Assembly: GCF_964204865.1 (NCBI RefSeq)
Contig: NC_135253.1
Location: 22,046,001 to 22,110,000 of the forward strand
From: Styela clava
Lineage: Eukaryota > Chordata > Ascidiacea > Stolidobranchia > Styelidae
Length of the DNA stretch: 64,000 nt
Direction of reading: 5' to 3'
Under the pieces are notes generated by a model. It saw only the letters and a list, made by a program, of their open reading frames with translations, had not been told where the DNA came from and searched no databases. Of the stretch, positions 32,887 to 64,000 are shown one piece after another; position 1 is the stretch's first letter, and the number at the start of each line of letters is the position of its first letter. The position numbers and the translations under genes were made by a program.

Positions 32887-32959
32887 TGTTTCCGCCCGGG
32901 CTCGAACCGGGGACCTTTCGCGTGTTAGGCGAACGTGATAACCACTACACTACGGAAAC
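32887..32959 (-). tRNA. tRNA-Val-AAC: tRNA-Val (AAC), first copy in the window
   Basis: 73 nt. All stems pair; the anticodon loop is CTAACAC; A- and B-boxes are intact. The encoded 5' end is GTTTCCG and discriminator A is present; CCA is not encoded. A TTTT lies about 10 nt downstream, serving as Pol III terminator. It stands 5 kb from the next copy. Confidence 0.97.
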
Positions 32960-34073
32960 ACCGCGACCCATAGTCTGGATTTCTGCGATACATAATTACC
33001 GATTCAACTATTCAAACAGAGTTACCAATTTGTGCTGATGGATACGTTTGCAAGGATACTATGTTCCACAGAAACGCTTGCGTTAAGGCCACAGTTACAT
33101 TAATGCTTGATAAGACAATTCAATCAGGATGGCAATTACATCCACAGTGCTTTATCATTTTGATTGTCTTAGCTTTGAGTTAAACACGACACTACGTCCA
33201 ACCAAAATATGTAATTCAGCCGAAATTTTGATTTTTGAAAAATTAAAGTCTGGCTCCGCGGAACGCTATTGGTTCCCTGTTCGGCATGACCTGCTTAGTT
33301 GAAAATATATTGCAGGGATGCTGCAGCCAGAATAAAGTTGGCAACTATGAAAAGTTTCAATAAAGGACATAGATTACCGTCATCATTTATTTTGTAACTT
33401 GCAGGAAAGAAAGATATAATACAATGAAATAAAAATTAGATACAAGCTAAAAATATATACTAAAACAATTTTCATGTGTTTATTTATTCAATGTTTATTT
33501 AACATTGACCCAAACAATGTTAATAAAATTGTTATTTCTTTGGCTATTTGATCTGAACCAAAGCGAAATCGAACAGAATAATCAAAAGCTTGCAAATACA
33601 TAAACGGAGGCAATTTTTTAAGAACGAAACAATATCGAACACAGTACTATAACTATCGGGCAAAACGACGTTGGAAAGAATAAAGGACAATTAGCATATT
33701 TTCTAAATGCTAAAAAGGACAAGGACCGAAAAGCTTGATAGGATTGTCCTTTGAAATAAAGGACGGTTGGCAACCCTAAGCCAAAATGAAGATGACTATT
33801 CTATGTGAAAAAAGAGTCCTGCTGCATATCAATTCAATGGACGTTTCCCTGACCATTGACCCCGAAAAATTTCCTATACTTCACCATTGGAAAAATTTTG
33901 CCGCTTATTTTCAGGAGTGTTTTAGAGAGTTCTCGCTTATGAACTCGTTTACATATTGGTTTGAACATTTGACTAATTTATCTCGGTACTACTTACTTTT
34001 GGTGTGTTTACGTATGGTTCACTGCATCGCGTCTATTTGCTGATTACTTGATTACTTCTTGTTATGGTTAACT
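32960..34073. other. Gene-free stretch with repeat pieces
   Basis: About 33175-33320 shares 'aagtctggctccgcggaacg' and 'tattggttccctgttcggca' with the blocks next to the tRNA genes at 37.5-42 kb. About 33340-33780 is bounded by 'agttggcaactatg' and 'ggacggttggcaaccc', possibly a decayed inverted-repeat element. No exon seen. Confidence 0.5.
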
Positions 34074-34081
34074 GTCTAGAG

Positions 34082-35959
34082 CAGGGGTCACCAACGCGCT
34101 GCCCGTGGGCACCAAGTCGCCCGTGAAGACTATATGAGTCGCCCGCAGGTCTGTTCCAAACTAAGCTTAATAACGGCGCTTAAAGGTAAGCTAAATCAAT
34201 CAAATTTGGTCCTGCTATTCTTGTCTAAATCACATTTATATGGAAACTGGGAATGACACTATATTAATTGTTGTAACCATCAACACCGCCGCGACTCACT
34301 CCACCAGGAACAAACACGGAACACGCCTCACTGATGAAAATCTGCAAAACACGCTCAGAGTTACAGTATCCAGGGGTCGGTCGCTTCGCTACCCGCGAGG
34401 GGGAAATGTAAAGAAATGTGTTTAGTAAGGTAAAAAGTAGGTGTTTGTTCTGATTTTGTTGGAAGACCCTGGTCGTTGCGCCGGACGAATGGCGGCATTC
34501 GTCCGGCGCAGTGCCCCCGACCTTTTTAGTCCATTAAATATTTTAAATACCAGGTTAGAAACCGATCACCCTCAATGGAAATCAAGTTTTATTAATTTTA
34601 GGGCCCGTGATCACTCAACCGTGACGAATTTTTTTTGACATAAATTAGACCTCAATTAACTTGTATGACCCAGATATGGCCTCTCTCCCTATTACCATTC
34701 TCGAGATATAACGTAAAATCACTGGAGCATGACTGAAGAGTTGGAGAAAAAAAATTCCTTTTAAAATGGATTCAAATAATTTTTCCAAATATGCCCATGC
34801 TTTCACTTTCTCAATATGTCCTTTCAGAGTCCTGCAATAAGCCAAAATCACTAAAGCGTGACTGGGGAGTAAGAGAACAAAAATTTCTTCAAAAAAATGT
34901 TAAACAAATTTTTCCAACCATACCTATCTATTTCATTTCTCAATAGCTCCATTTTTAAGTGCGCAACCTTCTTACTCCACTGGAGGGCTATTGGGAGGGG
35001 GAAACACCGATTTCTCAGTAAAGAAAATTTCAAATATTTATACTCTTTGAGAATTAGGCAAATCTTGGCCCAAAATCCCATTCACATGCCTCAGAATTGC
35101 CTAAAAACGATAGAACCTAAGTGGGCGTGGCTTTGCACGAGTTCTCTCACCACAGAGGGCGTGGGGGCACAGCCCCCACCGCCAAAAAGACTTGGAAAAA
35201 TTCCTAATACTCGGGCAAACGCTTTCCGGCCCCGGAAACTTAGCTAAACGGCCTCTAAACCCCTAAATCACTCTCGCGTGACTTGATTGACAGCTGATTG
35301 ACCAATGAACAGCCTCGGGCCACAAAAACCCCGTTTTGACCCCTTTCCTCTGGCCCGATCGTTTCCAAAAATTTTCTGCGTCATGCGGACAGGGATACCT
35401 GACTAACGTGCTAATCACCTACCTCATCTGCCCTACCCTACATAGTGGAAATGCTCATCAGTCGGTCTCCCACGCATAGAATTTTAACTTCCACCTCACG
35501 TGCAACGTTTTCTGATTTAGACTGTGCATTCGCACTTTCAGTGCGACAGGTTGCGAGACCATCAAGTTACACGTCGGAGTACAACACTCTGCAACATCTG
35601 ATAGTACAACTGTTGAGTCCATTTTATTTTGGACTGTGCAGAGTGTTTGTGAATAATCCAATCACATTGTGATTTCCTAGGGTATTATAGTAGTGATCAC
35701 TTCAAAATCAATTTCAAATCACTCAGTTTTGAAATGCAAGTGTCATTGATAAAAATTTATTTGATATGCTGTGATAATCGTTCGATTTCCTTAAGAATCC
35801 TCCTAAAGTTTATCTGCGCTTCTACTTGACTAAATACCAGTAATTATCAATATTTGAAGCTTAATTGAGCAAACTGACTGTGTACATTAAACTGGTAGCC
35901 CGCAGCTTGATCTGCACCTAGAAAGTAGCCCTCTGCCTCGAAAAGGTTGGTGACCCCTG
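34082..35959. mobile_element. hAT-type element, 1.88 kb, intact ends
   Basis: Ends CAGGGGTCACCAACG and GGTTGGTGACCCCTG (14 of 15 positions inverted), flanked by an exact 8-bp duplication GTCTAGAG (34074-34081 and 35960-35967). The inside has 'gcccgtgggcaccaagtcgc' at the left, and three diverged direct copies of a block like 'actgaagagttggagaaaaa' then 'atttttccaaatatgcccat' at 34720-34960. I saw no transposase frame, so it is a non-autonomous element. Confidence 0.92.
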
Positions 35960-36484
35960 GTCTAGAGCTTTAGTCTGTCTTTAGATCTGTTCTCAAAAGC
36001 TTGTTAATGGTGCTATAGTCCAGTAGTCATTGGGTATGAATAATCTATTTCCTAAGTTTCTTACATTGGGATATTCTGTTCTGACAAAGCCTCATTTAAA
36101 TGTAAGTGAATTGGTATATTCTTGCTTTGTATTGTGCCTGGTAGCCTGTACTCATTTTAATATTCATCTTTATTGTTTGTCAGGTCACTTTGTCTCACTG
36201 ATATCTGGATTAAATCACTTTGAGAAAAATCTGTTCGTTTCATTTCGGGATATTAAGTAAAGAGACATAGTAGGCAAGGATGATTTGTCAATGGGCAGAA
36301 ATCCAAACTACATATTCAAAATTATCAGTTTTATTACAACCAATGATCCACGTGCCGCTTACAAGTACTGATAGCAAATTTCAGTCTATCGCAACGTTTG
36401 CGGTATCGAAATTTAATTATAACAACTAAACTAAAGGTCCTTAGAAGACATATCGACAACTGAGTTAATTAATTTACCACTATT

Positions 36485-36735
36485 TTTCAGGAACACAACT
36501 GAAAACTGGCAAATAACGCGCAACGCTACGAAAACAAAGCAACAACAATTACAACAATGCGTGGAGATCGAGCGAAAGAAGTGTCTGAGCGACTCATTGT
36601 TGTCTTATTGAACACGTGGACCTTTGGACAAAAACAAGGCCATTTTTACAACAATGCTTGGAAATCTGTCCGAGCAAAAGAAGTATTTGAGCGACTGCAT
36701 GAATTGCATTTGACACGTCATTGTTGACTTATTGC
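36485..36735. repeat. Dispersed relative of the array's L segment
   Basis: 'aactggcaaataacgcgcaa', 'cgctacgaaaacaaagcaac', 'caatgcgtggagatcgagcg' and 'agaagtgtctgagcgactca' are the reverse complement, with changes, of the distal half of each L segment in the tRNA array. A second diverged copy of the last part follows at about 36650-36735. Confidence 0.75.
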
Positions 36736-36804
36736 TGATTGATCGTTGTTAGGGATATAAATGAAAATATCGATTCTTGGGTAAACATCCATTTATGTAA
36801 CCTA

Positions 36805-37470
36805 GTTCCGTGGTTCCCAACCGCCGGTCCGCGAAGCTTTTTTGCTTGTCCGTGGAAAGTTTCATTTTGTTGTTTGTCTGCCGTCTCAATCGCTTTACCA
36901 AAGCCGAAAAGGCGAATTTACGTTGGTTCATTACGCAATTTCTCTTCCGACATCCTATTGCTGTTTGATAGGTGAGATATGGCCTGGCGATGTCTTGGCT
37001 CCGAGTAATCACACGTTTTGTGTTTCGGTTCCGATTAATCGCGAAAGCGCTCCGCCAAATCTCGCAAGATTCAGAAACCTGAAAATCAGCATGCTTGCTT
37101 TTTCAGTTCTGCATGCTTTTCTTGATTAATATTACCATCCAAATAAAAGGTTACGAATATTTCTTTGTTTAAACCAGAAAACTGTCAAGAACAGTCTAAT
37201 ATTCCAGAGATTCACCATGACACCCACCGAGATATGAACTTGTTGCGACCCGGCATGTGGTCACGAGTCGCGCAGCAAAAGCATGAGTGGCTGAGATCTT
37301 TTTCGGGTAATGCACAGCAGAATTTTGAGCCTGGTGCCAAGTTAGCAACGACTTTATCATTGTAATATAAACTAATTTTGTTTAGGTGGTCGATCAACTG
37401 CAGAGGGATTGAAATGATGAACCCGACGAAACCTCTACTTTACAGATTTATAAAAGAATCATTGTCACAC
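36805..37470. repeat. Segment duplicated at 40685-41310, first copy
   Basis: It begins with a hAT-like end ('gtggttcccaaccgccggtc') and runs through 'caatcgctttaccaaagccg', 'caagaacagtctaatattcc' and 'gaacttgttgcgacccggca' to 'acgaaacctctactttacag'. The copy about 3.9 kb downstream is about 90% identical. No right hAT end was found. Confidence 0.8.
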
Positions 37471-37479
37471 GATTTTAAG

Positions 37480-37958
37480 TATTATACGCTTTTTGGGGTC
37501 TAGCGAAGTACGCGCAGTAAGTGCTCAAATAAAGCCCAACAAAAATATGTAATTCATCGCAAATTTTGATTTTTGAAAATAAAAGTCTGTCTCCGCGGAA
37601 CGCTATTGGTTCCCTGTTTGGCATGATCTGCTTAGTTGAAAATTGAGTGCGTTCGCTGAACACGTCAAGAATTTCATTCCGCGCCAGACAGACCTAAAAA
37701 AAGCATAAAAGTTTCACATTGGATTTTTGTTTGATGTTCTTTTAATGGGTTACGACGTTTTCTTCTCTAGATCCCTTTTTTCCTATTGGAATTTGCAATC
37801 AAAACTATTTTTATAATAAATAGATTTTGTAGCACCTCTGTGAAATGCTTGTCCAAAGAAGTCTGACCTCGGTCAGACAAAACGTTGCAGAAATACATTT
37901 GTGTTAGTGTGCAGCAAGACTCTTAAATTAAATAGAAGAATCTTAACAATTGGAAAAT
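37480..37958. repeat. tRNA-flanking repeat block R1, copy 1
   Basis: From 'gggtctagcgaagtacgcgc' through 'agtctgtctccgcggaacgc', 'catgatctgcttagttgaaa' and 'gtctgacctcggtcagacaa' to 'taaattaaatagaagaatct'. It ends directly at the 3' side of the tRNA-Val gene at 37959. Other copies: 38080-38530, 39285-39754, 41335-41793; partial 40305-40470 and 42540-42650. Confidence 0.85.
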
Positions 37959-38031
37959 TGTTTCCGCCCGGGCTCGAACCGGGGACCTTTCGCGTGTTAG
38001 GCGAACGTGATAACCACTACGCTACGGAAAC
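37959..38031 (-). tRNA. tRNA-Val-AAC: tRNA-Val (AAC)
   Basis: Loop CTAACAC. One A-box change (GCGTAG for GTGTAG). TTTT terminator within 10 nt. Confidence 0.93.
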
Positions 38032-38530
38032 GTGCGGCCGCTTGTTAATATTATTCCAGGGGTAAGGTCATTTTATGGAAAGGGTCTAGCGAAGTACGCG
38101 CAGAAGTGCTCAAATAGAGCCCAACAAAAAGATGTAATTCATCGCAAATTTTGATTTTTGAAAAATAAAAGTCTGTCTCCGCGGAACACTATTGGTTCCC
38201 TGTTTGGCATGACCTGCTCAGTTGAAAATTGAGTGCGTTCTCTGAACACGTCAAGAATTTCATTCCGCACCAAACGGCCCTTAAAAAAGCATAAAAGTTT
38301 CACATTGGAATTTTGTTTGATGTTCTTTTAATGAGTTACGACGTTTTCTTCTCTAGATCTCCTTTTTCCTATTGTAATTTGCAATCAATTCTATTTTTAT
38401 AATAAATAGATTTTGTAGCACCTCTGTGAAATGCTTGACCTCGGTCAGACAAAACGTTACAGAAATACATTTGTGTTAGTGTGCAGCAAGACTCTTAAAT
38501 TAAATAGAAGAATCCTAACAATTCGAAAAT

Positions 38531-38603
38531 TGTTTCCGCCCGGGCTCGAACCGGGGACCTTTCGCGTGTTAGGCGAACGTGATAACCACTACACTACGGA
38601 AAC
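38531..38603 (-). tRNA. tRNA-Val-AAC: tRNA-Val (AAC)
   Basis: Consensus sequence; loop CTAACAC; TTTT close downstream. It pairs with the CAC gene 133 bp away, a doublet repeated at 41794/42000. Confidence 0.96.
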
Positions 38604-38736
38604 GCGCGTTCGCTTACTAATATTTACGGGTCATTATTCCAGGGGTAAGGACATTTTATGGAGAGGAAAACACATCGCCGTCAGGAATGTTTTTGTTAAA
38701 TATCATATTTTGCATTTGTGAATTTGTTCAATAGCT

Positions 38737-38809
38737 TGTTTCCGCCCGGGCTCGAACCGGGGACCTTTCGCGTGTGAAGCGAACGTGATAACCACTACAC
38801 TACGGAAAC
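38737..38809 (-). tRNA. tRNA-Val-CAC: tRNA-Val (CAC)
   Basis: Loop TTCACAC, otherwise consensus. No T-run of four or more within 25 nt downstream. Confidence 0.95.
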
Positions 38810-39285
38810 GGTTTCTTAACGGCTTATCTTTCTGCACTTCGTTCTCCAGTAGGGCAATAAGATTTGCGGATGGAGTTAGGATTGAATCAGAAATCAATAA
38901 CCTTTGCCTTAGTGTGATTTCGCTTGACCTATGTTTGAAAAAAGTTGTAAAAAGCATGGCACCAAACATGGTATAACTGAGACGAATTATTTTTGGGAAC
39001 AGTGTAATTACTTTTTACAAAATAGCAAATAAATCCATTAGCTTTCGTTAGATCATAGTCTAACTTTTTCTGACAAAACAAAGAAAATAATCGTTTGTAG
39101 AACGCTCTGACCATGTAATTGCCATCCTAAATACATTGTTTTAGTTATATCGTTAGTAGCGGGAACTTTGTATAAATGATCCTAGACCACTGATATTATC
39201 ATGCCTGTAGATTGTCAGATCGTTGGAATCGGCGTTCACAAATGCTGGTATTGAGATTTTAAAGCATTATACGCTTTTTCCGAGT
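38810..39285. repeat. tRNA-flanking repeat block R2, copy 1
   Basis: 'tgcacttcgttctccagtag', 'gatttgcggatggagttagg', 'gttgtaaaaagcatggcacc' and 'ctgatattatcatgcctgta'. Copies at 39828-40305 and 42073-42540 always follow the 5' side of a CAC gene. Confidence 0.85.
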
Positions 39286-39754
39286 CTAGCAAAGTACACG
39301 CCATAAGCGCTTAAATAACGCCGAACAAAAATTGGTAATTCAGCCTAAATCTTGATTTTGAAAAAATAAAATTCTGTCTCTTGCGGAGTTGAACGCTATT
39401 GGTACCCTGTTTGGCATGACCAGATTAGTTGAAAACGCGATTGTGAAAAATTTTTCCCGAGAAGAATTTCATTCCGCGCCAGACAGACCTAAAAAAAAGC
39501 ATAAAAGTTTCACATTGGATTTTTGTTTGATGTTCTTTTAATGAGTTACGACGTTTTCTTCTCTAGATCCCCTTTTTCCTATTGTAATTTGCAATCAATT
39601 CTATTTTTATAATAAATAGATTTTGTAGCACCTCTGTGAAATGCTTGTCCGAAGAAGTCTGACCTCGGTCAGACAAAACGTTACAGAAATACATTTGTGT
39701 TAGTGTGCAGCAAGACTCTTAAATTAAATAGAAGAATCTCAACAATTAGAAAAT

Positions 39755-39827
39755 TGTTTCGGCTCGGGCTCGAACCGGGGACCTTCCGCGTGTGAAGCGA
39801 ACGTGATAACCACTACACTACGGAAAC
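39755..39827 (-). tRNA. tRNA-Val-CAC: tRNA-Val (CAC), weakened stems
   Basis: Loop TTCACAC. A mismatch in the acceptor stem (position 67 G to C) and changes in the T-stem and the 3' anticodon side. TTTT downstream. Possibly non-functional. Confidence 0.8.
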
Positions 39828-40571
39828 GGTTGCTTAATGGCTTATTTTGCTGCACTTCGTTCTCCAGTAGAGCAATAAGATTTGCGGATGGAGTTAGGAT
39901 TGAATCAGAAAACAATAACATTTGCCTTAGTGTGATTTCGCGTGACCTATGTTTGAGAAAAGTTGTAAAAAGCATGGCACCAAACATTGTATAACTGAGA
40001 CGAATTATTTTTGGGAACAGCGTAATTACTTTTTACAAAATAGAAAATAAATTTCTTCGTAAGATCATAGTCTAACTTTTTCTCACAAAACAAAGAAATA
40101 AATCGTTTGTAGAACGCTCTGACCATGTAATTGCCATCCTAATTACATTGTCTTATTTATATCGTTAGTGGCGGGAACTTTGTATAAAAGATCCTAGACC
40201 ACTGATATTATCATGCCTGTAGATTGTCAGATCGTTGGAATCGGCGTTCACAAATGCTGGTATTGAAATTTTAAAGCATTATACGCTTTTTCCGAGTCTA
40301 GAAAAGTACACGTCATAAGCGCTCAAATAACGCCGAACAAAAATTGGTAATTCAGCCTAAATCTTGATTTTGAAAAAATAAAATTCTGTCTCTTGCGGAG
40401 TTGAACGCTATTGGTACCCTGTTTGGCATGACCAGATTAGTTGAAAACGCGATTGTGAAAAATTTTTCCCGAGTTGTGAAACTTGGAATTGACTCCAGCG
40501 AAAAGAATCATTATTATAAAACACTGCCGTCCTAATTCTATTGTCTTATTAAGTACCTAGAAAGGGCAAGC

Positions 40572-40637
40572 GTTTCCGTAGTGTAGTGGTTACGCTTTAC
40601 ACGCGAAAGGACCCCGGATCGAGCCCGGACGGAAACA
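40572..40637 (+). pseudogene. tRNA-Val (TAC) with a 7-base deletion, plus strand
   Basis: The only plus-strand copy. The bases TCACGTT between the D-loop and the anticodon stem are missing, and the B-box has a change (GGATCGAGC). It cannot fold as a tRNA. Part of a block otherwise absent from the array. Confidence 0.9.
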
Positions 40638-40684
40638 ATCGCTTTCCTCATCGCTTTACCCTATTCACAAACATGATACATGAG

Positions 40685-41310
40685 TGTTCAGTGGTTCCCA
40701 ACCGTCGGTCCGCGGGAAATTTCATTTTGTTGTTTTTCTACCGTTTCAATCGCTTTACCGTAGCGGAAAAGGCGAATTTACGTATTACGCAATTTATCTC
40801 CCGCCATCCTATTGCTATTTGATAGGTGCGATATGACCTGGCGACGTCTGGGCTCCGAGTAATCACACTTTTCGCTTAATCGCGAAAGCGCTCCGTCAAA
40901 TCTCGCAAGATTCAGAAACCTGAAAATCAGCATGCTTGCTTTTCTTCGTTCTGCATGCTTTCCTGGATTAATGTTACCATCCAAATAAAACGTTTTGGCT
41001 ATTTCTTTGTTTAAACTAGAAAAATGTCAAGAACAGTCTGATATTCCAGAGCTTCACCATGACACCCACCGAGATATGAACTTGTTGCGACCCGGCATGT
41101 GGTCACGAGTCGCGCAGAAAAAGCATGAGTGGCTGAGATCTTTTCCGGGTGATGCACAGCAGGATTTTGAGCCTGGTGCCAAGTTAGCAACAACTTTATC
41201 ATCGTAATATAAATTAATTTTGTTTAGGTGATCGATCAACTGCAGAGGGATTGAAATGATGAACCCGACGAAACCTCTACTTTACAAATTTATAAAAGAA
41301 TCATTGTCAC
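40685..41310. repeat. Segment duplicated from 36805-37470, second copy
   Basis: 'gtggttcccaaccgtcggtc', 'caagaacagtctgatattcc', 'gaacttgttgcgacccggca' and 'acgaaacctctactttacaa'; a small deletion near the start distinguishes the copies. Confidence 0.85.
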
Positions 41311-41793
41311 AAGATTTTAAGTATCATACGCTTTTCGGGGTCTAGCGAAGTACGCGCAGTAAGTGCTCAAATAAAGCCCAACAAAAAGATGTAATTCATC
41401 GCAAATTTTGATTTTTGAAAAATAAAAGTCTGTCTCCGCGGAACGCTATTGATTCCCTGTTTGGCATGACCTGCTTAGTTGAAAATTGAGTGCGTTCGCT
41501 GAACACGTCAAGAATTTTATTCCGCGCCAGACAGACCTAAAAAAAGCATAAAAGTTTCACATTGGATTTTTGTTTGATGTTCTTTTAATGAGTTTTCTTC
41601 TCTAGATCCCCTTTTTCCTATTGTAATTTGCAATCAATTCTATTTTTATAATAAATAGATTTTGTAGCACCTCTGTGAAATGCTTGTCCGAAGAAGTCTG
41701 ACCTCGATCAGACAAAACGTTACAGAAATACATTTGTGTTAGTGTGCAGCAAGACTCTTAAATTAAATAGAAGAATCTTAACAATTGGAAAAT

Positions 41794-41866
41794 TGTTTCC
41801 GCCCGGGCTCGAACCGGGGACCTTTCGCGGGTTAAGCGAACGTGATAACCACTACACTACTGAAAC
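41794..41866 (-). tRNA. tRNA-Val-AAC: tRNA-Val (AAC), degenerate
   Basis: Loop TTAACCC (A37 changed to C), acceptor mismatch at position 6 (GTTTCAG). TTTT downstream. Likely decaying. Confidence 0.75.
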
Positions 41867-41999
41867 GCGTGTCCGCTTACCAATATTTACGGGTCATTAT
41901 TCCAGGGGTAAGGACATTTTATGGAAAGGAAAAAACATTGCCGCCAGGAATGTTTTTCTTAAATATCATATTTTGCATTTGTGAATTTGTTCAATAGCT

Positions 42000-42072
42000 T
42001 GTTTCCGCCCGGGCTCGAACCGGGGACCTTTCGCGTGTGAGGCGAACGTGATAACCACTACACTACGGAAAC
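42000..42072 (-). tRNA. tRNA-Val-CAC: tRNA-Val (CAC)
   Basis: Loop CTCACAC. This is the only CAC copy with C at position 32, as in the AAC genes, so it may be one mutation away from an AAC gene. Confidence 0.95.
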
Positions 42073-54544: not shown

Positions 54545-54570
54545 GTGGTCGTGGGGAAATGATAAACCCT

Positions 54571-54643
54571 TGTTTCCGCCTGGGCTTGAACCGGGGACCT
54601 TTCGCGTGTGAAGCGAACGTGATAACCACTACACTACGAAAAC
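54571..54643 (-). tRNA. tRNA-Val-CAC: tRNA-Val (CAC), weakened
   Basis: Wobble at acceptor pair 5-68 and a changed T-stem pair (CCCAG). Confidence 0.88.
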
Positions 54644-54937
54644 GCTCGCCACTGGACGCCAATTGATAAGACTGTTCACTCTTGTTTATATAATACCCTC
54701 AAAAACTTCCGAGTTTACAGTCGCAAGAATTTTCACAGACAACCGTCACGCTTGGCGGATTAAAAATCTTGTTCCCATAAACCCACGCAAGGTAATCAGA
54801 GGTGCGGTGGCGAGTGTATTCCAACGCCTAGAACGATGAGTAACACCTCCGAGGGGAGGACTCAAAATTCGAGCTATTGTATCTTTGAAATACTTATACG
54901 TGATGTTTGTGAATGAAGTAAGGAAAAAATAAACCCT

Positions 54938-55010
54938 TGTTTCCGCCCGGGCTCGAACCGGGGACCTTTCGCGCGTAAAGCGAACGTGATAACCACTACA
55001 CTACGGAAAC
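54938..55010 (-). tRNA. tRNA-Val-TAC: tRNA-Val (UAC), A37G
   Basis: Loop TTTACGC; T6 terminator. Confidence 0.9.
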
Positions 55011-55303
55011 GCTCACCACTGGACGGCAATTGATAAGACTGTTCACTCTTGTTTATTTAATACCCTCAAAAACTTCCGAGTTTCCAGTCGCAAGAATTTT
55101 CACAGACAACCGTCACGCTTGGCGGATTAAAACCGTGTTCCCATAAACCCACGCAATGTAATCAGAGGTGCGATGGCGAGTGTATTCCAACGCCTAGAAC
55201 GATGAGCAACACCTCCGAGGGGAGGACTCAAAATCCGAGCTATTGTATCTTTGAAATACTTATAAGTGATGTTTGTGAATGAAATAAGGAAAAAATAAAC
55301 CCT

Positions 55304-55376
55304 TGTTTCCGCCCGGGCTCGAACCGGGGACCTTTCGCGTGTGAAGCGAACGTGATAACCACTACACTACGGAAAC
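55304..55376 (-). tRNA. tRNA-Val-CAC: tRNA-Val (CAC)
   Basis: Consensus CAC, T6 terminator. A third tRNA-less junction follows at about 55670. Confidence 0.97.
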
Positions 55377-55830
55377 GCTCGCCACTGGACGCCAATTGAT
55401 AAGACTGTTCACTCTTGTTTATATAACACCCTCAAAAACTTCCGAGTTTCCAGTCGCAAGAATTTTCACAGACAACCGTCACGCTTGGCAGATTAAAAAT
55501 CTTGTTCCCATAAACCCACGCAAGGTAATCAGAGGTGCGGTGGCGAGTGTATTCCAACGCCTAGAACGATGAGTAACACCTCCGAGGGGAGGACTCAAAA
55601 TTCGAGCTATTGTATCTTTGAAATACTTATACGTGATGTTTGTGAATGAAGTAAGGAAAAAATAAACCCATAAACCCGCGCAAGGTAATCAGAGGTGCGG
55701 TGGCAAGTGTATTCCAACGCCTAGAACGATGAGCAACACCTCCGAGGGGAGGACTCAAAATCCGAGCTATTGTATCTTTGAAATACTTATAAGTGATGTT
55801 TGTGAATGAAATAAGGAAAAAATAAACCCT

Positions 55831-55903
55831 TGTTTCCGCCCGGGCTCGAACCGGGGACCTTTCGCGTGTAAAGCGAACGTGATAACCACTACACTACGGA
55901 AAC
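55831..55903 (-). tRNA. tRNA-Val-TAC: tRNA-Val (UAC)
   Basis: Consensus UAC, T6 terminator. Confidence 0.97.
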
Positions 55904-56197
55904 GCTCAACACTGGACGGTAATTGATAAGACTGTTCACTCTTGTTTATTTAATACCCTCAAAAACTTCCGAGTTTCCAGTCGCAAGAATTTTCACAGAC
56001 AGCCGTCACGCTTGGCGGATTAAAAACCGTGTACCCATAAACCCACGCAAGGTAATCAGAGGTGCGACGGCGAGCATATTCCAACGCCTAGAACGATGAG
56101 CAACAACTCCGAGGGGAAGACTCAAAATTCGAGCTATTGTATGTTTGAAATACTTATACGTGATGTTTGTGAATGAAGTAAGGAAATAATAAACCCT

Positions 56198-56270
56198 TGT
56201 TTCCGCCCGGGCTCGAACCGGGGACCTTTCGCGTGTAAAGCGAACGTGATAACCACTACACTACGGTAAC
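56198..56270 (-). tRNA. tRNA-Val-TAC: tRNA-Val (UAC), acceptor mismatch
   Basis: 5' end GTTACCG gives an A-A mismatch at pair 4-69. Same change at 58588. Confidence 0.82.
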
Positions 56271-56561
56271 GCTTAGAACTAGACGGCAATTGATGAGACT
56301 GTTCACTCTTGTTTATTTAATACCATCGAAAACTTCCAAGTTTCCGTAAGAATTTTCCCTGACAGCCGTCACGCTTGGCGGATTAAAAACCGTGTTCCCA
56401 TAAACCCACGCAAGGTAATCAGAGGTGCGACGGCGAGCATATTCCAACGCCTAGAACGATGAGCAACACCTCCGAGAGGGAAGACTCAAAATTCGAGCTA
56501 TTGTATCTTCGAAATACTTATACGTGGTGTTTGTGAATGAAGTAAGGAAATGATAAACTCT

Positions 56562-56634
56562 TGTTTCCGCCCGGGCTCGAACCGGGGACCTTTCGCGTGT
56601 AAAGCGAACATGATAATCACTACACTACGGAAAC
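56562..56634 (-). tRNA. tRNA-Val-TAC: tRNA-Val (UAC), G19A class
   Basis: D-loop GTGATTATCAT; left of L copy 6; TTT only. Confidence 0.8.
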
Positions 56635-56770
56635 GCTCGCCACTGGACGCCAATTGATAAGACTGTTCACTCTTGTTTATATAATACCCTCAAAAACTTC
56701 CGAGTTTCCAGTCGCAAGAATTTTCACAGACAGCCGTCACGCTTGGCGGATTAAAAACCGTGTTCTCATA

Positions 56771-57135
56771 ATTAAAACGTGATACAGCGCAATTTTGGAT
56801 GAAATATCAGATCTCATACGATTTATAGAAAATTTAGGAATAAATCAAAGTAATATCCTTCTGACAAAAAAATCAATCTTTCACCACTAAACATTTCAAA
56901 GCAATTGGTCTAGTATTCAACGAAAAAAGCGAATATATCATGACGAAGAAGAAGGACATCAATAAGAACATAATATCAAAACGATTCAACGGTCCACGTG
57001 TCCAATAAGACAACAACAAGTCGCTCAGACACTTCTTTCGCATGATTTCCACGCATTGTTGTTATTGTTGTTGCCTTTGTTTTCGTGGCTTTGCGTGTTA
57101 TTTGTCAGCTTTCATACGTGTTTTCAAAAAAAAAA
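56771..57135. repeat. L segment, copy 6
   Basis: Shorter by loss of one 'aacaac' step ('aataagaacataatatc'). Confidence 0.92.
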
Positions 57136-57161
57136 GTGGTCGTAAGGAAATGATAAACCCT

Positions 57162-57234
57162 TGTTTCCGCCCGGGCTTGAACCGGGGACCTTTCGCGTGT
57201 GAAGCGAACGTGATAACCACTACACTACGGAAAC
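57162..57234 (-). tRNA. tRNA-Val-CAC: tRNA-Val (CAC)
   Basis: Consensus CAC with TTCAAGC T-loop; T-run from the L segment downstream. Confidence 0.95.
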
Positions 57235-57528
57235 GCTCGCCACTGGACGCCAATTGATAAGACTGTTCACTCTTGTTTATATAATACCCTCAAAAACTTC
57301 CGAGTTTCCAGTCGTAAGAATTTTCCCTGACAGCCGTCACGCTTGGCGGATTAAAAACCGTGTTCTCATAAACCCACGCAAGGTAATAAGAGGTGCGACG
57401 GCGAGCATATTCCAACGCCTAGAACGATGAGCAACACCTCCGAGGGGAAGACTCAAAATTCGAGCTATTGTATCTTCGAAATACTTATACGTGATGTTTG
57501 TGAATGAAGTAAGGAAAAAATAAACCCT

Positions 57529-57601
57529 TGTTTCCGCCCGGGCTCGAACCGGGGGCCTTTCGCGTGTTAGGCGAACGTGATAACCACTACACTACGGAAA
57601 C
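57529..57601 (-). tRNA. tRNA-Val-AAC: tRNA-Val (AAC)
   Basis: Loop CTAACAC, one variable-loop change, T6 terminator. Its 5' spacer keeps the SINE B-box (57690). Confidence 0.95.
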
Positions 57602-57853
57602 TACACGAGCCTAGGGATGGATTTCTGCGATTCATAATTCCCAAATTTCCAAACCTCTCGCAAATAACCATCCCTGCTTGGGATTCGAACCTGCAAACCC
57701 ACGCAAGGTAATCAGAGGTGCGATGGCGAGCGTATTCCAACGCCTAGAACGATGAGTGACACCTCCGAGGTGAGGACTCAAAATTCGAGCTATTGTATCT
57801 TTGAAATACTTATACGTGATGTTTGTGAATGAAGTAAGGAAATAATAAACCCT

Positions 57854-57926
57854 TGTTTCCGCCCGGGCTCGAACCGGGGACCTTTCGCGTGTAAAGCGAA
57901 CGTGATAACCACTACACTACGGGAAC
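57854..57926 (-). tRNA. tRNA-Val-TAC: tRNA-Val (UAC), acceptor mismatch
   Basis: 5' end GTTCCCG (C-A at pair 4-69); same change at 61569, also next to an AAC gene. Confidence 0.83.
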
Positions 57927-58220
57927 GCTCAGAACTAGACGGCAATTGATAAGACTGTTCACTCTTGTTTATTTGATACCATCGAAAACTTCCGAGTTTC
58001 CAGTCGCAAGAATTTTCCCTGACAGCCGTCACGCTTGGCGGATTAAAAACCGTGTTCCCATAAACCCACGCAAGGTAATAAGAGGTGCGACGGCGAGCAT
58101 ATTCCAACGCCTAGAACGATGAGCAACACCTCCGAGGGGAAGACTCAAAATTCGAGCTCTTGTATCTTCGAAATACTTATACGTGATGTTTGTGAATGAA
58201 GTAAGGAAAAAATAAACCCT

Positions 58221-58293
58221 TGTTTCCGCCCGGGCTCGAACCGGGGACCTTTCGCGTGTAAAGCGAACGTGATAACCACTACACTACGGAAAC
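58221..58293 (-). tRNA. tRNA-Val-TAC: tRNA-Val (UAC)
   Basis: Consensus UAC, T6 terminator. Confidence 0.97.
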
Positions 58294-58587
58294 GCTCACC
58301 ACTGGACGGCAATTGATAAGAATGTTCACTCTTGTTTATTTAATACCCTCAAAAACTTCCGAGTTTCCAGTCGCAAGAATTTTCACAGACAGCCGTCACG
58401 CTTGGCGGATTAAAAACCGTGTACCCATAAACCCACGCAAGGTAATCAGAGGTGCGACGGCGAGCATATTCCAACGCCTAGAACGATGAGCAACAACTCC
58501 GAGGGGAAGACTCAAAATTCGAGCTATTGTATGTTTGAAATACTTATACGTGATGTTTGTGAATGAAGTAAGGAAATAATAAACCCT

Positions 58588-58660
58588 TGTTTCCGCCCGG
58601 GCTCGAACCGGGGACCTTTCGCGTGTAAAGCGAACGTGATAACCACTACACTACGGTAAC
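58588..58660 (-). tRNA. tRNA-Val-TAC: tRNA-Val (UAC), acceptor mismatch
   Basis: GTTACCG 5' end as at 56198; both are followed by a G19A copy and an L segment. Confidence 0.82.
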
Positions 58661-58950
58661 GCTCAGAACTAGACGGCAATTGATAAGACTGTTCACTCTT
58701 GTTAATTTAATACCATCGAAAACTTCCGAGTTTCCGTAAGAATTTTCCCTGACAGCCGTCACGCTTGGCGGATTAAAAACCGTGTTCCCATAAACCCACG
58801 CAAGGTAATCAGAGGTGCGACGGCGAGCATATTCCAACGCCTAGAACGATGAGCAACACCTCCGAGGGGAAGACTCAAAATTCGAGCTATTGTATCTTCG
58901 AAATACTTATACGTGGTGTTTGTGAATGAAGTAAGGAAATGATAAACTCT

Positions 58951-59023
58951 TGTTTCCGCCCGGGCTCGAACCGGGGACCTTTCGCGTGTAAAGCGAACAT
59001 AATAATCACTACACTACGGAAAC
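58951..59023 (-). tRNA. tRNA-Val-TAC: tRNA-Val (UAC), G19A class
   Basis: D-loop GTGATTATTAT, one more change than its sisters. Confidence 0.76.
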
Positions 59024-59159
59024 GCTCGCCACTGGACGCCAATTGATAAGACTGTTCACTCTTGTTTATATAATACCCTCAAAAACTTCCGAGTTTCCAG
59101 TCGCAAGAATTTTCACAGACAGCCGTCACGCTTGGCGGATTAAAAACCGTGTTCCCATA

Positions 59160-59531
59160 ATTAAAACGTGCTACAGCGCAATTTTGGATGAAATATCAGA
59201 TCTCATACGATTTATAGAAAATTTAGGAATAAATCAAAGTAATATCCTTCTGACAAAAAAATCAATCTTTCACCACTAAACATTTCAAAGCAATTGGTCT
59301 AGTATTCAACGAGAAAAGCGAATATATCATGACGAAGAAGAAGGACATCAACAAGAACAACAACATAATATCAAAACGATTCAACGGTCCACGTGTCCAA
59401 TAAGACAACAACAAGTCGCTCAGACACTTCTTTCGCATGATTTCCACGCATTGTTGTTATTGTTGTTGCCTTTGTTTTCGTGGCTTTGCGTGTTATTTGT
59501 CAGCTTTCATACGTGTTTTCAAAAAAAAAAA
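59160..59531. repeat. L segment, copy 7
   Basis: Close to copy 3; A-run of 12. Confidence 0.92.
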
Positions 59532-59557
59532 GTGGTCGTAAGGAAATGATAAACCCT

Positions 59558-59630
59558 TGTTTCCGCCCGGGCTTGAACCGGGGACCTTTCGCGTGTGAAG
59601 CGAACGTGATAACCACTACACTACGGAAAC
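59558..59630 (-). tRNA. tRNA-Val-CAC: tRNA-Val (CAC)
   Basis: Consensus CAC, TTCAAGC T-loop. Confidence 0.95.
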
Positions 59631-59924
59631 GCTCGCCACTGGACGCCAATTGATAAGACTGTTCACTCTTGTTTATATAATACCCTCAAAAACTTCCGAG
59701 TTTCCAGTCGTAAGAATTTTCCCTGACAGCCGTCACGCTTGGCGGATTAAAAACCGTGTTCCCATAAACCCACGCAAGGTAATCAGAGGTGCGACGGCGA
59801 GCATATTCCAACGCCTAGAACGATGAGCAACACCTCCGAGGGGAAGACTCAAAATTCGAGCTATTGTATCTTCGAAATACTTATACGTGGTGTTTGTGAA
59901 TGAAGTAAGGAAATGATAAACTCT

Positions 59925-59997
59925 TGTTTCCGCCCGGGCTCGAACCGGGGAACTTTCGCGTGTAAAGCGAACATGATAATCACTACACTACGGAAAC
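59925..59997 (-). tRNA. tRNA-Val-TAC: tRNA-Val (UAC), G19A class
   Basis: D-loop GTGATTATCAT plus a variable-loop change (AAAGTTCCCC). Confidence 0.77.
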
Positions 59998-60133
59998 GCT
60001 CGCCACTGGACGCCAATTGATAAGACTGTTCACTCTTGTTTATATAATACCCTCAAAAACTTCCGAGTTTCCAGTCGCAAGAATTTTCACAGACAGCCGT
60101 CACGCTTGGCGGATTAAAAACCGTGTTCCCATA

Positions 60134-60850
60134 ATTAAAACGTGCTACAGCGCAATTTTGGATGAAATATCAGATCTCATACGATTTATAGAAAATTTAG
60201 GAATAAATCAAAGTAATATCCTTCTGACAAAAAAATCAATCTTTCACCACTAAACATTTCAAAGCAATTGGTCTAGTGGCGGTGTGGCTCAACGGGCTAA
60301 GCGTTAGGAATACGCTCGTCACCGCACCTCTAATTGCTCTGCGTGGGTTCGCAGGTTCGAATCCCATGCAGGGATGGTTATGTGCGAGAGGATTGCTGGA
60401 CTCCTCGCCGTCGTTGGGTGGTTCACGTACCGCTGGTCGGTTACGGCTTCCTCCACCACCAAGTCCATGCTTCCGAAAACAAACAATACAGTAAAAAACT
60501 AAATCCCATACCCGACTTGGAATGGTAACCGGACGAGAGGCCGTGGTTCGCCATATGGATAAGCCGTCTTATCGGCTTTCCTCTCCCCGGGATAAATATG
60601 TAAATCCTATCCTATCCTATCCTATTCAACGAGAAAAGCGAATATATCATTACGAAGAAGAAGGACATCAATAAGAACAACAACATAATATCAAAACGAT
60701 TCAACGGTCCACGTGTCCAATATGACAACAACAAGTCGCTCAGACACTTCTTTCGCATGATTTCCACGCATTGTTGATATTGTTGTTGCCTTAGTTTTCG
60801 TGGCTTTGCGTGTTATTTGTCAGCTTTCATACGTGTTTTCAAAAAAAAAA
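60134..60850. repeat. L segment, copy 8, interrupted by a SINE
   Basis: The normal sequence 'ggtctagtattcaacgag' is split after 'ggtctagt' (60277) and resumes at 'attcaacgag' (60624). Confidence 0.92.
60278..60623 (+). mobile_element. tRNA-derived SINE, full length, 346 bp
   Basis: Head 'ggcggtgtggctcaacgggc' (A-box), 'ggttcgcaggttcgaatccc' (B-box), then 'gagaggattgctggactcct', 'accgctggtcggttacggct', 'aagtccatgcttccgaaaac', 'ggataagccgtcttatcggc' and a tail of TATCC repeats. It is the best-preserved member here and serves as reference for the family. No target duplication beyond a base or two is visible. Confidence 0.95.
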
Positions 60851-60876
60851 GTGGTCGTAAGGAAATGATAAACCCT

Positions 60877-60949
60877 TGTTTCCGCCCGGGCTTGAACCGG
60901 GGACCTTTCGCGTGTGAAGCGAACGTGATAACCATTACACTACGGAAAC
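60877..60949 (-). tRNA. tRNA-Val-CAC: tRNA-Val (CAC)
   Basis: CAC with one D-loop change (GTAATGG). Confidence 0.93.
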
Positions 60950-61243
60950 GCTCGCCACTGGACGCCAATTGATAAGACTGTTCACTCTTGTTTATATAAT
61001 ACCCTCAAAAACTTCCGAGTTTCCAGTCGTAAGAATTTTCCCTGACAGCCGTCACGCTTGGCGGATTAAAAACCGTGTTCCCATAAACCCACGCAAGGTA
61101 ATAAGAGGTGCGACGGCGAGCATATTCCAACGCCTAGAACGATGAGCAACACCTCCGAGGGGAAGACTCAAAATTCGAGCTATTGTATCTTCGAAATACT
61201 TATACGTGATGTTTGTGAATGAAGTAAGGAAAAAATAAACCCT

Positions 61244-61316
61244 TGTTTCCGCCCGGGCTCGAACCGGGGACCTTTCGCGTGTTAGGCGAACGTGATAACC
61301 ACTACACTACGGAAAC
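61244..61316 (-). tRNA. tRNA-Val-AAC: tRNA-Val (AAC)
   Basis: Consensus AAC, T6 terminator; 5' spacer keeps the SINE B-box (61400). Confidence 0.97.
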
Positions 61317-61568
61317 TACACGAGCCTAGGGATGGATTTCTGCGATTCATAATTCCCAAATTTCCAAACCTCTCGCAAATAACCATCCCTGCTTGGGATT
61401 CGAACCTGCAAACCCACGCAAGGTAATCAGAGGTGCGATGGCGAGCGTATTCCAACGCCTAGAACGATGAGTAACACCTCCGAGGTGAGGACTCAAAATT
61501 CGAGCTATTGTATCTTTGAAATACTTATACGTGATGTTTGTGAATGAAGTAAGGAAATAATAAACCCT

Positions 61569-61641
61569 TGTTTCCGCCCGGGCTCGAACCGGGGACCTTT
61601 CGCGTGTAAAGCGAACGTGATAACCACTACACTACGGGAAC
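61569..61641 (-). tRNA. tRNA-Val-TAC: tRNA-Val (UAC), acceptor mismatch
   Basis: GTTCCCG 5' end as at 57854. Confidence 0.83.
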
Positions 61642-61935
61642 GCTCAGAACTAGACGGCAATTGATAAGACTGTTCACTCTTGTTTATTTAATACCATCGA
61701 AAACTTCCGAGTTTCCAGTCGCAAGAATTTTCCCTGACAGCCGTCACGCTTGGCGGATTAAAAACCGTGTTCCCATAAACCCACGCAAGGTAATCAGAGG
61801 TGCGACGGCGAGCATATTCCAACGCCTAGAACGATGAGCAACACCTCCGAGGGGAAGACTCAAAATTCGAGCTATTGTATCTTCGAAATACTTATACGTT
61901 ATGTTTGTGAATGAAGTAAGGAAATGATAAACTCT

Positions 61936-62008
61936 TGTTTCCGCCCGGGCTCGAACCGGGGACCTTTCGCGTGTAAAGCGAGCATGATAATCACTACACT
62001 ACGAAAAC
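61936..62008 (-). tRNA. tRNA-Val-TAC: tRNA-Val (UAC), G19A class
   Basis: D-loop GTGATTATCAT, T27 to C, wobble at 5-68. Confidence 0.75.
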
Positions 62009-62145
62009 GCTCGCCACTGGACGCCAATTGATAAGACTGTTCACTCTTGGTTATATATTACCCTCAAAAACTTCCGAGTTTCCAGTCGCAAGAATTTTCA
62101 CAGACAGCCGTCACGCTTGGCGGATTAAAAAACCGTGTTCCCATA

Positions 62146-62517
62146 ATTAAAACGTGATACAGCGCAATTTTGGATGAAATATCAGATCTCATACGATTTA
62201 TAGAAAATTTAGGAATAAATCAAAGTAATATCCTTCTGACAAAAAAATCAATCTTTCACCACTAAACATTTCAAAGCAATTGGTCTAGTATTCAACGAAA
62301 AAAGCGAATATATCATGACGAAGAAGAAGGACATCAACAAGAACAACAACATAATTTCAAAACGATTCAACGGTCCACGTGTCCAATAAGACAACAACAA
62401 GTCTTTCAGACACTTCTTTCGCATGATTTCCACGCATTGTTGTTATTGTTGTTGCCTTTGTTTTCGTGGCCTCGCGTGTTATTTGTCAGCTTTCATACGT
62501 GTTTTCAAAAAAAAAAA
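62146..62517. repeat. L segment, copy 9
   Basis: Reads 'cgtggcctcgcgtgtt' where the others read 'cgtggctttgcg'; A-run of 11. Confidence 0.92.
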
Positions 62518-62543
62518 GTGGTCGTAAGGAAATGATAAACCCT

Positions 62544-62616
62544 TGTTTCGGCCCGGGCTTGAACCGGGGACCTTTCGCGTGTGAAGCGAACGTGATAACC
62601 ACTACACTACGGAAAC
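62544..62616 (-). tRNA. tRNA-Val-CAC: tRNA-Val (CAC), acceptor mismatch
   Basis: Position 67 G to C gives a C-C mismatch. Confidence 0.83.
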
Positions 62617-62910
62617 GCTCGCCACTGGACGCCAATTGATAAGACTGTTCACTCTTTTTTTATATAATACCCTCAAAAACTTCCGAGTTTCCAGTCGCAA
62701 GAATTTTCACAGACGGCCGTCACACTTGGCGGATTAAAACCGTGTTCCCATAAACCCACGCAAGGTAATCAGAGGTGCGATGGCGAGTGTATTCCAACGC
62801 CTAGAACGATGAGCAACACGTCCGAGGGGAGGATTCAAAATCCGAGCTATTGTATCTTTGAAATACTTATACGTGATGTTTGTGAAGGAAGTAAGTAAAA
62901 AATGAACCCT

Positions 62911-62983
62911 TGTTTCGGACCGGGCTCGAACCGGGGACCTTTCGCGTGTGAAGCGAACGTGATAACCACTACACTACGGAAAC
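62911..62983 (-). tRNA. tRNA-Val-CAC: tRNA-Val (CAC), weakened
   Basis: Acceptor mismatch at 67 and a T-stem change at 65; T6 downstream. Confidence 0.8.
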
Positions 62984-63277
62984 GCTCGCCACTGGACGCC
63001 AATTGATAAGACTGTTCACTCTTGTTTATATAATACCCTCAAAAACTTCCGAGTTTCCAGTCGCAAGAATTTTCACAGACAACAGTCACGCTTGGCGGAA
63101 TAAAAATCTTGTTCCCATAAACCCACGCAAGGTAATCAGAGGTGCGGTGGCGAGTGTATTCCAACGCCTAGAACGATGAGTAACACCTCCGAGGGGAGGA
63201 CTCAAAATTCGAGCTATTGTATCTTTGAAATACTTATACGTGATGTTTGTGAATGAAGTAAGGGAATAATAAACCCT

Positions 63278-63350
63278 TGTTTCCGCCCGGGCTCGAACCG
63301 GGGACCTTTCGCGTGTAAAGCGAACGTGATAACCACTACACTACGGAAAC
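63278..63350 (-). tRNA. tRNA-Val-TAC: tRNA-Val (UAC)
   Basis: Consensus UAC. It has the spacer type with SINE B-box otherwise seen beside AAC genes, suggesting anticodon replacement or conversion. Confidence 0.95.
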
Positions 63351-63602
63351 TCCATGATCCTATGGGTGGATTTCTGCAATACATAATTCACAAATTTCCA
63401 AACCTCCCGCAAATAACCATCCCTGCTTGGGATTCGAACCTGCAAACCCACGCAAGGTAATCAGAGGTGCGATGGCGAGCGTATTCCAACGCCTAGAACG
63501 ATGAGTACCACCTCCGAGGGGAGGACTCAAAATTCGAGCTATTTTATCTTTGAAATACTTATACGTGATGTTTGTGAAAGAATTTAGGAAATATTAAACC
63601 CT

Positions 63603-63675
63603 TGTTTCCGCCCGGGCTCGAACCGGGGACCTTTCGCGTGTAAAGAGAACGTGATAACCACTACACTACGGAAAC
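63603..63675 (-). tRNA. tRNA-Val-TAC: tRNA-Val (UAC), weakened
   Basis: One mismatch in the anticodon stem (TTCTC). Confidence 0.85.
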
Positions 63676-63969
63676 GCTCACCACTGGACGGCAATTGATA
63701 AGACTGTTCACTCTTGTTTATTTAATACCCTCAAAAACTTCCGAGTTTCCAGTCGCAAGAATTTTCACAGACAGCCGTCACGCTTGGCGGATTAAAAACC
63801 GTGTTCCCATAAACCCACGCAAGGTAATCAGAGGTGCGACGGCAGGCATATTCCAACGCCTAGAACGATGAGCAACAACTCCGAGGGGAAGACTCAAAAT
63901 TCGAGCTATTGTGTCTTCGAAATACTTATACGTGATGTTTGTGAATGAAGTAAGGAAATGATAAACCCT

Positions 63970-64000
63970 TGTTTCCGCCCGGGCTCGAACCGGGGACCTT
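63970..64000 (-). tRNA. tRNA-Val, cut by the window edge
   Basis: Only the T-arm and the 3' acceptor strand are inside the window; the anticodon is not visible. Confidence 0.9.

Follow-up and report, generated by a model that had tools for sequence, protein, structure and literature searches.

The 64,000-nucleotide stretch of Styela clava DNA analysed here (the window) contains a tandem array of tRNA-Val genes with three anticodons, organized in higher-order units and including copies whose two flanks match different loci. We consider it likely, with a probability of about 0.75, that this array arose by local, young, recombination-driven tandem amplification, which was largely neutral for the individual copy and left a functional subset of genes. 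A protein pieced together from the window has its nearest counterpart in Ciona (58-60% identity), in line with an ascidian source.

The array is real. ARAGORN called 56 tRNA-Val genes in the window. Of these, 55 are complete genes on the minus strand, spanning 32887-63675, and one is a degenerate copy on the plus strand; no other isotype was called across the window, in agreement with the original prediction. No tRNA was present in positions 1-32000, and first-order Markov controls of 32001-64000 (n=30) yielded 0 tRNA genes, against 56 in the real sequence. All 55 minus-strand genes show the cloverleaf and Val anticodon of the nuclear tRNA-Val family (28 TAC, 17 CAC and 10 AAC), and score 49.7-67.1 bits against the Rfam tRNA covariance model (gathering score 29). 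An Rfam search with fast filters listed 46 of the 55, including 32887, and a further search matched all 54 genes within 36000-64000. Among the 55 genes there are 34 distinct sequences. The window ends inside another minus-strand tRNA-Val gene, whose 3' portion makes up its last 31 bases, so the array extends past the window end. The predicted figures of 56 minus-strand genes, 49 of them in the last 20.6 kb, probably correspond to 55 and 48 complete genes, respectively, each with the one cut gene added. Genes are named below by their start positions.

Table: Coordinates of the tRNA-Val array features in the window
Feature	Positions	Strand	Details
Main array	43275..64000	-	48 complete tRNA-Val genes (28 TAC, 14 CAC, 6 AAC) and 1 cut
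Example higher-order unit	48962..51571		2610 aligned columns, 97.2% identity to 53799-56403
Left cluster, other flanks	36848..42653	-	Six genes; ARAGORN and self-matches
Left-cluster genes (starts)	37959 AAC, 38531 AAC, 38737 CAC, 39755 CAC, 41794 AAC, 42000 CAC	-	
Solitary tRNA-Val(AAC)	32887..32959	-	Flanks related to array AAC genes 44774, 47728, 48431
Inverted degenerate tRNA-Val relic (TAC)	40572..40637	+	Without 7 nt where D arm meets anticodon stem
tRNA-Val truncated by the window end (3' 31 nt)	63970..64000	-	Array continues beyond the window
Chimera	39755..39827	-	Upstream flank of CAC 38737, downstream flank of AAC 38531
Chimera	46658..46730	-	Upstream flank and anticodon of AAC type; downstream flank like G19A TAC monomers
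Chimera	57529..57601	-	Like 61244; inside duplicated unit
Chimera	61244..61316	-	Upstream flank and anticodon of AAC type, TAC/CAC-monomer downstream flank; exchange 3' of anticodon
Chimera	63278..63350	-	Upstream flank of AAC type; anticodon TAC; downstream flank of TAC type; exchange 5' of position 32
G19A + C25T TAC copy, first of nine	44395..44467	-	A-box pattern disrupted; nearest downstream T4 run at 70 nt
Other G19A + C25T TAC copies (starts)	45466, 47350, 49126, 51362, 56562, 58951, 59925, 61936		

The main block (43.4-64 kb; complete genes from 43434 to 63675) consists mostly of a 367-bp monomer nested inside higher-order units, with a start-to-start distance most often of 366-367 bp (22/47; range 325-952 bp) and a spacer mostly of 294 bp. 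Its 48 complete genes form a homogeneous tandem tDNA cluster, in which neighbours lie less than 1 kb apart, run parallel on the minus strand and all specify Val. The five longest repeats of the block measure 2.2-2.6 kb at 94-98% identity, while the 25 longest self-matches printed show 90-99% identity with 0-28 gapped positions. The gene calls, anticodon counts and repeat matches bear out the predicted large, higher-order array of mixed isoacceptors for a single amino acid. Nearby copies are more alike: in 553 same-type pairs, proximity and likeness were correlated with a Spearman rho of 0.146, a value that 5 of 500 permutations attained, although this dependence on distance is small. The left cluster contains duplicated blocks of its own (36848-38083 versus 40708-41929, 91%; 38082-39390 versus 41338-42653, 94%). 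One array spacer carries an inserted dispersed repeat (60278-60622), and the matches of the array into 1-32000 comprise this repeat and a short spacer piece, with no tRNA among them.

Five copies join the flanks of different loci that clearly have only the tRNA gene in common, so the exchange probably took place inside the gene. For 39755, the upstream flank matches that of 38737 (z 15.1; downstream z -0.4) and the downstream flank matches that of 38531 (z 15.3; upstream z 2.5), and the copy is read as the result of loss of a 206-bp interval via exchange within the tRNA gene, 3' of the anticodon. For 61244, 57529, 46658 and 63278, the upstream flanks match AAC genes (z 13-17) and the downstream flanks match TAC monomers (z 16-19), with z values of -0.6 to 2.9 for the other flanks of the matched genes. 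Copy 57529 is held in a duplicated unit (56914-58430 versus 60623-62146, 97.8%), the second member of which contains 61244. Intragenic exchange probably happened three to four times. Some of the non-matching flank comparisons lie above zero (z up to 2.9), and slight shared flank sequence is possible.

Most copies keep their stems and both internal promoter boxes, as had been predicted: all 20 tested stem pairs are kept in 37/55 genes, the A-box pattern in 46/55, the B-box pattern in 52/55 and both in 43/55, using a stem map, conserved-position list, box patterns and Sprinzl numbering taken from general knowledge. When the 20 stem pairs and 16 conserved positions are considered together, only 26/55 genes are structurally clean (12 CAC, 8 TAC and 6 AAC). 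The commonest single sequences are a clean TAC form (7 copies) and a clean CAC form (6 copies). A T4 run starts no more than 30 nt downstream of 33/55 genes, including 20/26 clean genes, and a complete T4 lies inside 30 nt in 19/26 clean genes versus 11/29 others (p 0.014, with copies that are not independent). The greater frequency of near terminators on clean genes could mean that an expressed subset has been kept. One TAC form, altered at a conserved position (G19A, accompanied by C25T), has been amplified to nine copies, which are probably inactive.

Strong purifying selection on each copy was not seen in the divergence, damage and variable-site tests. Among the 48 main-array genes, 17/31 distinct tRNA-body substitutions fall at stems or conserved positions (random expectation 17.6, sd 2.3), and among all 55 genes 21/35 distinct substitutions are damaging (random expectation 20.0, sd 2.4). 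Variable sites are found at 18/72 gene positions versus 73/220 flank positions, a difference that is not significant (Fisher p 0.24); because the copies are related and not independent, p values serve only as guides and test power is limited. Flank types were clustered by single linkage at 20%, with the AAC-type downstream flank lumped with the main type. Pairs of copies diverge on average by 0.035 in the gene and by 0.053 in the flanks (541 of 1128 pairs); the lower value for the gene speaks against pure drift and leaves room for weak selection. The original prediction had favoured a role for the array rather than simple drift, which is not borne out by the random-like damage, the variable-site comparison and the nine copies of the G19A form. 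Solitary gene 32887 differs from array AAC genes 44774, 47728 and 48431 at 2-4/73 gene positions versus 21/82 flank positions (p 0.00006 to 0.0008), suggesting long-term constraint on the tRNA-Val family.

Selected dosage, in which the array is kept for high demand in all three Val isoacceptors and holds enough intact copies despite the decay of single ones, would account for the presence of all three anticodons among the 26 clean genes, the predominance of clean TAC and CAC sequences, the somewhat lower divergence of genes than of flanks, and the commoner near terminators on clean genes. It is nevertheless unlikely, given that the damage pattern is random-like and that damaged forms were amplified too, up to nine copies. 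In addition, codon usage is typical in the cat flea, which has >4000 tRNA genes and an elevated count for Val; in the part of the paper available, the authors favour indiscriminate duplication (PMC7305587). Less probable again is a chromatin role, in which the copies, irrespective of the tRNA they encode, would bind TFIIIC and serve as boundaries, as clustering sites or as nucleation points for heterochromatin. This would suit the widespread retention of the promoter boxes, and has parallels in the available parts of reports on a human tRNA tandem repeat for which a boundary function has been proposed (PMC4041453) and on the Arabidopsis SYY cluster, which overlaps heterochromatin and is not active in most tissues (PMC12308677); but because the B box coincides in part with the conserved T arm, finding it kept gives no independent evidence of such a role. 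Multiplication or mis-joining of copies by the assembler is very improbable, for although tandem repeats mis-assemble easily, the long self-matches differ by ~1-10% and carry gaps, one spacer has its own inserted dispersed repeat, the genes fall into many distinct sequences, and the flanking sequences of the left cluster and of the solitary gene are different ones.

Other identities for the repeated sequences were set aside. A SINE or other mobile element seems a less likely array source, judged from the window: a tRNA-derived SINE family would consist of dispersed copies with a tRNA-derived head and an unrelated body and tail, and the copies within the window are tandem and full-length tRNA genes. 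No viral contig exactly matched a 30-base pattern from the spacer. For a repeated reading frame of 121 aa, Pfam gave nothing above cut-off (best, one DUF, E 0.039, 13.7 bits versus a cut-off of 27); the frame runs antisense through a tRNA and is taken as chance. An Rfam search to E 0.1 over 36-64 kb for other RNA genes in the spacers gave 54 matches, all tRNA.

Tandem clusters of tDNA for the same amino acid are already known, and the Styela array is large but of a known kind. The Arabidopsis SYY (tRNA-Ser/Tyr/Tyr) cluster and other plant tDNA clusters share the tandem amplification of tDNA units (PMC12308677; PMC12652284; PMC10701932, as far as the available parts of these sources go). Examples are 27 clustered tRNA-Pro genes in Arabidopsis, 28 clustered tRNA-Ile genes in maize, and an Arabidopsis tRNA-Cys cluster of ~420-bp units. 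The SYY core is flanked by variable, pseudogene-richer regions, and 13/54 clustered Tyr genes give tRNA-like RNAs (PMC12308677). Plant clusters range from 2 to 110 genes, including three bryophyte clusters of 26, 18 and 14 identical genes, and some similar pairs have a changed anticodon (PMC12652284). In 50 plant species, 77.41% of tandem tDNA pairs that are >74.4% alike and share an amino acid show no anticodon change, and the remaining pairs therefore did change (PMC12652284). The predicted higher-order mixture of three isoacceptors is present, and mixed anticodons as such have a precedent in plants. The Styela array differs from the plant clusters in being from an animal, in combining one amino acid with three isoacceptors, and in its nested higher-order repeats, chimeric flanks and damage to about half of the copies.

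Likenesses also exist with animal homogeneous tDNA clusters and with tRNA turnover and remolding (PMC2888827; PMC4981973; PMC3923123; PMC7919458). According to the portions of this literature at hand, drosophilid tDNA pairs are mostly for the same amino acid and most are parallel, Drosophila tandem arrays expand and contract, turnover proceeds by tandem duplication typically followed by pseudogenisation, and isoacceptor shifts occur at the first anticodon base in 39/44 cases, with 39% between U and C. These portions contain no match to 48 complete one-amino-acid genes in 20.7 kb, and do not describe anticodon transfer via intragenic exchange. A literature search for tRNA-Val arrays or clusters found none, which does not establish that no such array has been published. 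For tunicate nuclear tRNA genes, only Didemnum appeared among the matches listed, by title and start of abstract, which is no proof of absence. As described in the available part of that report, Didemnum vexillum has large, variable tRNA gene numbers, with pseudogenes at >72% of loci, but its striking excess, in an early draft, is of tRNA-SeC, and no Val array is described (PMC5006418). Entamoeba likewise has tandem arrays of tRNA units, but with up to 5 genes per unit, almost all tRNA genes arrayed and microsatellite-like repeats between genes, according to the accessible part of the source (PMC2652664), in contrast to the one amino acid and mostly 294-bp spacer in Styela.

In the favoured recombination-driven amplification, at least two ancestral Val genes (a 32887-like AAC locus and a CAC/TAC locus) would have come close together, and their near-identical 73-bp gene bodies would have provided homology for unequal crossing over or related repair. 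Such exchange may have joined the flanks of different loci, placed anticodons on new flanks and helped the 367-bp monomer array to form, and more unequal exchange between monomers would have given rise to the 2.2-2.6 kb higher-order units. About half of the copies appear, from their sequences, to remain plausible Pol III tRNA genes, which may be transcribed and add to the Val tRNA pool. The remaining copies would be passengers undergoing decay, and no clear signal of selection is visible at the level of single copies. More tentatively, the tRNA gene body may itself be a recombination substrate that joins the flanks of unrelated loci and swaps anticodons, possibly creating a self-expanding, isoacceptor-mixing satellite in which the isoacceptor gene counts of a species shift without selection on codon use.

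tRNA gene counts are often taken as a proxy for translational demand. At this animal locus, recombination and mutation seem to account for much of the gain, mixing and damage of dozens of Val genes with three anticodons, so that tRNA counts taken from genomes of this kind could be misleading. Concrete breakpoints for testing tRNA genes as seeds of unequal exchange are offered by the chimeric copies.

ARAGORN, run over the whole window, called 56 tRNA genes, all tRNA-Val, of which 55 lie on the minus strand and one, a degenerate relic (40572-40637), on the plus strand, and the Rfam tRNA model recognises each of the 55 minus-strand genes (49.7-67.1 bits), 46 of them being picked up in a fast-filter run. 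This bears out the original prediction of a tRNA-Val array with no other isotype, and its counts of 56 minus-strand genes, 49 of them in the last 20.6 kb, are probably explained by one further tRNA-Val gene, cut by the window end, whose 3' part forms the final 31 bases. No tRNA genes were called in 1-32000 (ARAGORN), and 30 Markov controls of 32001-64000 yielded none. The minus-strand genes carry the anticodons TAC (28), CAC (17) and AAC (10), the corresponding numbers from 43434 onward, in the main block (43275-64000), being 28, 14 and 6.

Start-to-start distances in the main block are 366-367 bp in 22 of 47 cases (a 73-bp gene plus a 293-294-bp spacer) and otherwise span 325-952 bp. Spacer types occur repeatedly through the block, and longer units are themselves duplicated (see table). 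The dispersed repeat in the longest step matches relatives in 1-32000 (732-1049, 7806-7983, 13365-13593, 14512-14702 and others) at 71-84% over 189-336 bp. Three spacers contain 160-bp tandem duplications (50671-50993, 53639-53961 and 55507-55829; matches 96-100%). A long-spacer segment (e.g. 56987-57140 and 60702-60855) is related, in inverted orientation, to a stretch beyond the array (36476-36626, 83-85%), and an 89-bp spacer piece has weaker relatives at 18428-18508 (73-75%). The AAC-type upstream flank at ~57600-57700 (minus strand) includes a B-box-like stretch, similar to the 3' end of another tRNA and possibly an older tRNA relic.

Features of the window
Feature	Position	Strand	Remarks
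Ascidian RIIa/IQ gene	~1190-8470	minus	extent estimated from open reading frames
Long E/P/A-rich repeat, unit length 27 bp	2160-4136		658-aa open frame, in a frame neighbouring the RIIa/IQ gene
Short dispersed fold-back element	8772-8850, 9983-10062, 20940-21017, 25110-25263, 30040-30119, 30740-30817, 32529
Second tRNA-Val cluster, left of main block	36.8-42.7 kb		duplicated blocks
Long repeat unit	48597-50833 with 50836-53068		98.3% identity
Long repeat unit	48962-51571 with 53799-56403		97.2% identity
Long repeat unit	55667-57601 with 58057-59997		97.7% identity
Dispersed repeat	~60278-60622		inserted in the array's 952-bp step

The RIIa/IQ gene (RIIa domain, E 1e-13; IQ motif, E 2e-5) is SPA17-like, SPA17 being a sperm protein with both features. 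Its query protein, manually joined from three pieces, matched Ciona savignyi (60%), C. intestinalis (58%) and, over 61% of its length, Clavelina lepadiformis (59%), with no matches beyond these species at E 0.001. By these matches the window comes from an ascidian other than the three, likely a phlebobranch, the group that includes Cionidae. At up to 5 mismatches in 23, the core of the fold-back element matched at 14 places, mostly as inverted pairs ~55 bp apart.

Five copies, named here by their start coordinates, carry pairs of flanks that elsewhere are found at separate loci. Gene 39755 matches the CAC gene 38737 in its upstream flank and the AAC gene 38531 in its downstream flank. These two genes start 206 bp apart; in the simplest reading, the interval between them would have been lost through an intragenic exchange on the 3' side of the anticodon. 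Genes 46658, 57529 and 61244 join an AAC-type upstream flank and anticodon to the downstream flank of TAC/CAC monomers, while 63278 has an AAC-type upstream flank and a TAC anticodon, placing the exchange 5' of position 32. Matching flanks score z 13-19, against -1.0 to 2.9 for non-matching flanks and for parental flanks compared with each other, leaving the tRNA body as the only clear shared tract; some downstream flanks may share slight similarity. Three to four intragenic events would account for these copies, counting 57529/61244 as one duplicated event, which 46658 may share. Among same-type copies, closer neighbours are somewhat more similar (rho 0.146; 5 of 500 permutations equally high), as local unequal exchange predicts. 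The anticodon tracks the upstream haplotype, the CAC and G19A TAC copies sharing one and most other TAC copies another, which suggests few U/C changes at the wobble base, later spread by amplification. Isoacceptor shifts are reported to involve mostly the first anticodon base, 39% being between U and C (PMC3923123).

Tandem tDNA clusters for a single amino acid are on record, including 27 tRNA-Pro in Arabidopsis, 28 tRNA-Ile in maize, and three clusters in a bryophyte, with 26, 18 and 14 identical genes, and tDNA clusters of up to 110 genes, make-up unstated, are reported (PMC12652284). The SYY cluster, with a unit number of 27 (PMC10701932), has a core and edges richer in pseudogenes (PMC12308677); homogeneous tDNA pairs are described in drosophilids and others (PMC2888827), and Drosophila tRNA arrays expand and contract (PMC7919458). 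The kind of array is thus already known, and this one is a striking new case, distinguished by its breakpoints inside genes and by the mixture of three isoacceptors in a single nested array of an animal.

Intactness was scored per gene over 20 stem pairs and 16 conserved positions, all of which are kept in 26 of 55 genes (12 CAC, 8 TAC, 6 AAC) and in 22 of the 48 complete main-block genes. All stem pairs survive in 37 genes, at least one is broken in 18, and in 11 more the change affects conserved positions alone. G19A and C25T occur together in nine TAC copies, each with its first T4 run 70 nt downstream; a T4 run starts within 30 nt in 33 of 55 genes overall and 20 of the 26 clean ones. Position 37, adjoining the anticodon, varies in 52337 and 53070 (A to T), 54938 (A to G) and 41794 (A to C).

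If single copies were important, substitutions would be expected to avoid critical positions. Such avoidance was not seen in the array, where 17 of 31 distinct substitutions are damaging (expected 17.6, sd 2.3), and across all 55 genes the figure is 21 of 35 (expected 20.0, sd 2.4; sequence positions 32 and 34 excluded). Among 32 monomers that agree in flank type, variable sites number 18 of 72 in the gene (wobble position excluded) and 73 of 220 in the flanks (p 0.24). Mean pairwise divergence is lower in the gene (0.035) than in each flank (0.053; 541 of 1128 pairs), making weak constraint on array gene bodies possible. A dosage or chromatin role for the array is possible, with little support. 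The flanks of the solitary AAC gene 32887, left of the second cluster, are recognisably related to those of three array AAC genes, from which it differs at 2-4 of 73 positions in the body versus 21 of 82 in the flanks; over this greater distance the body is clearly the better conserved. The tRNA-Val family is constrained; individual array copies mostly lack the look of constraint. The sequence is best explained by recombination-driven amplification accompanied by partial decay.
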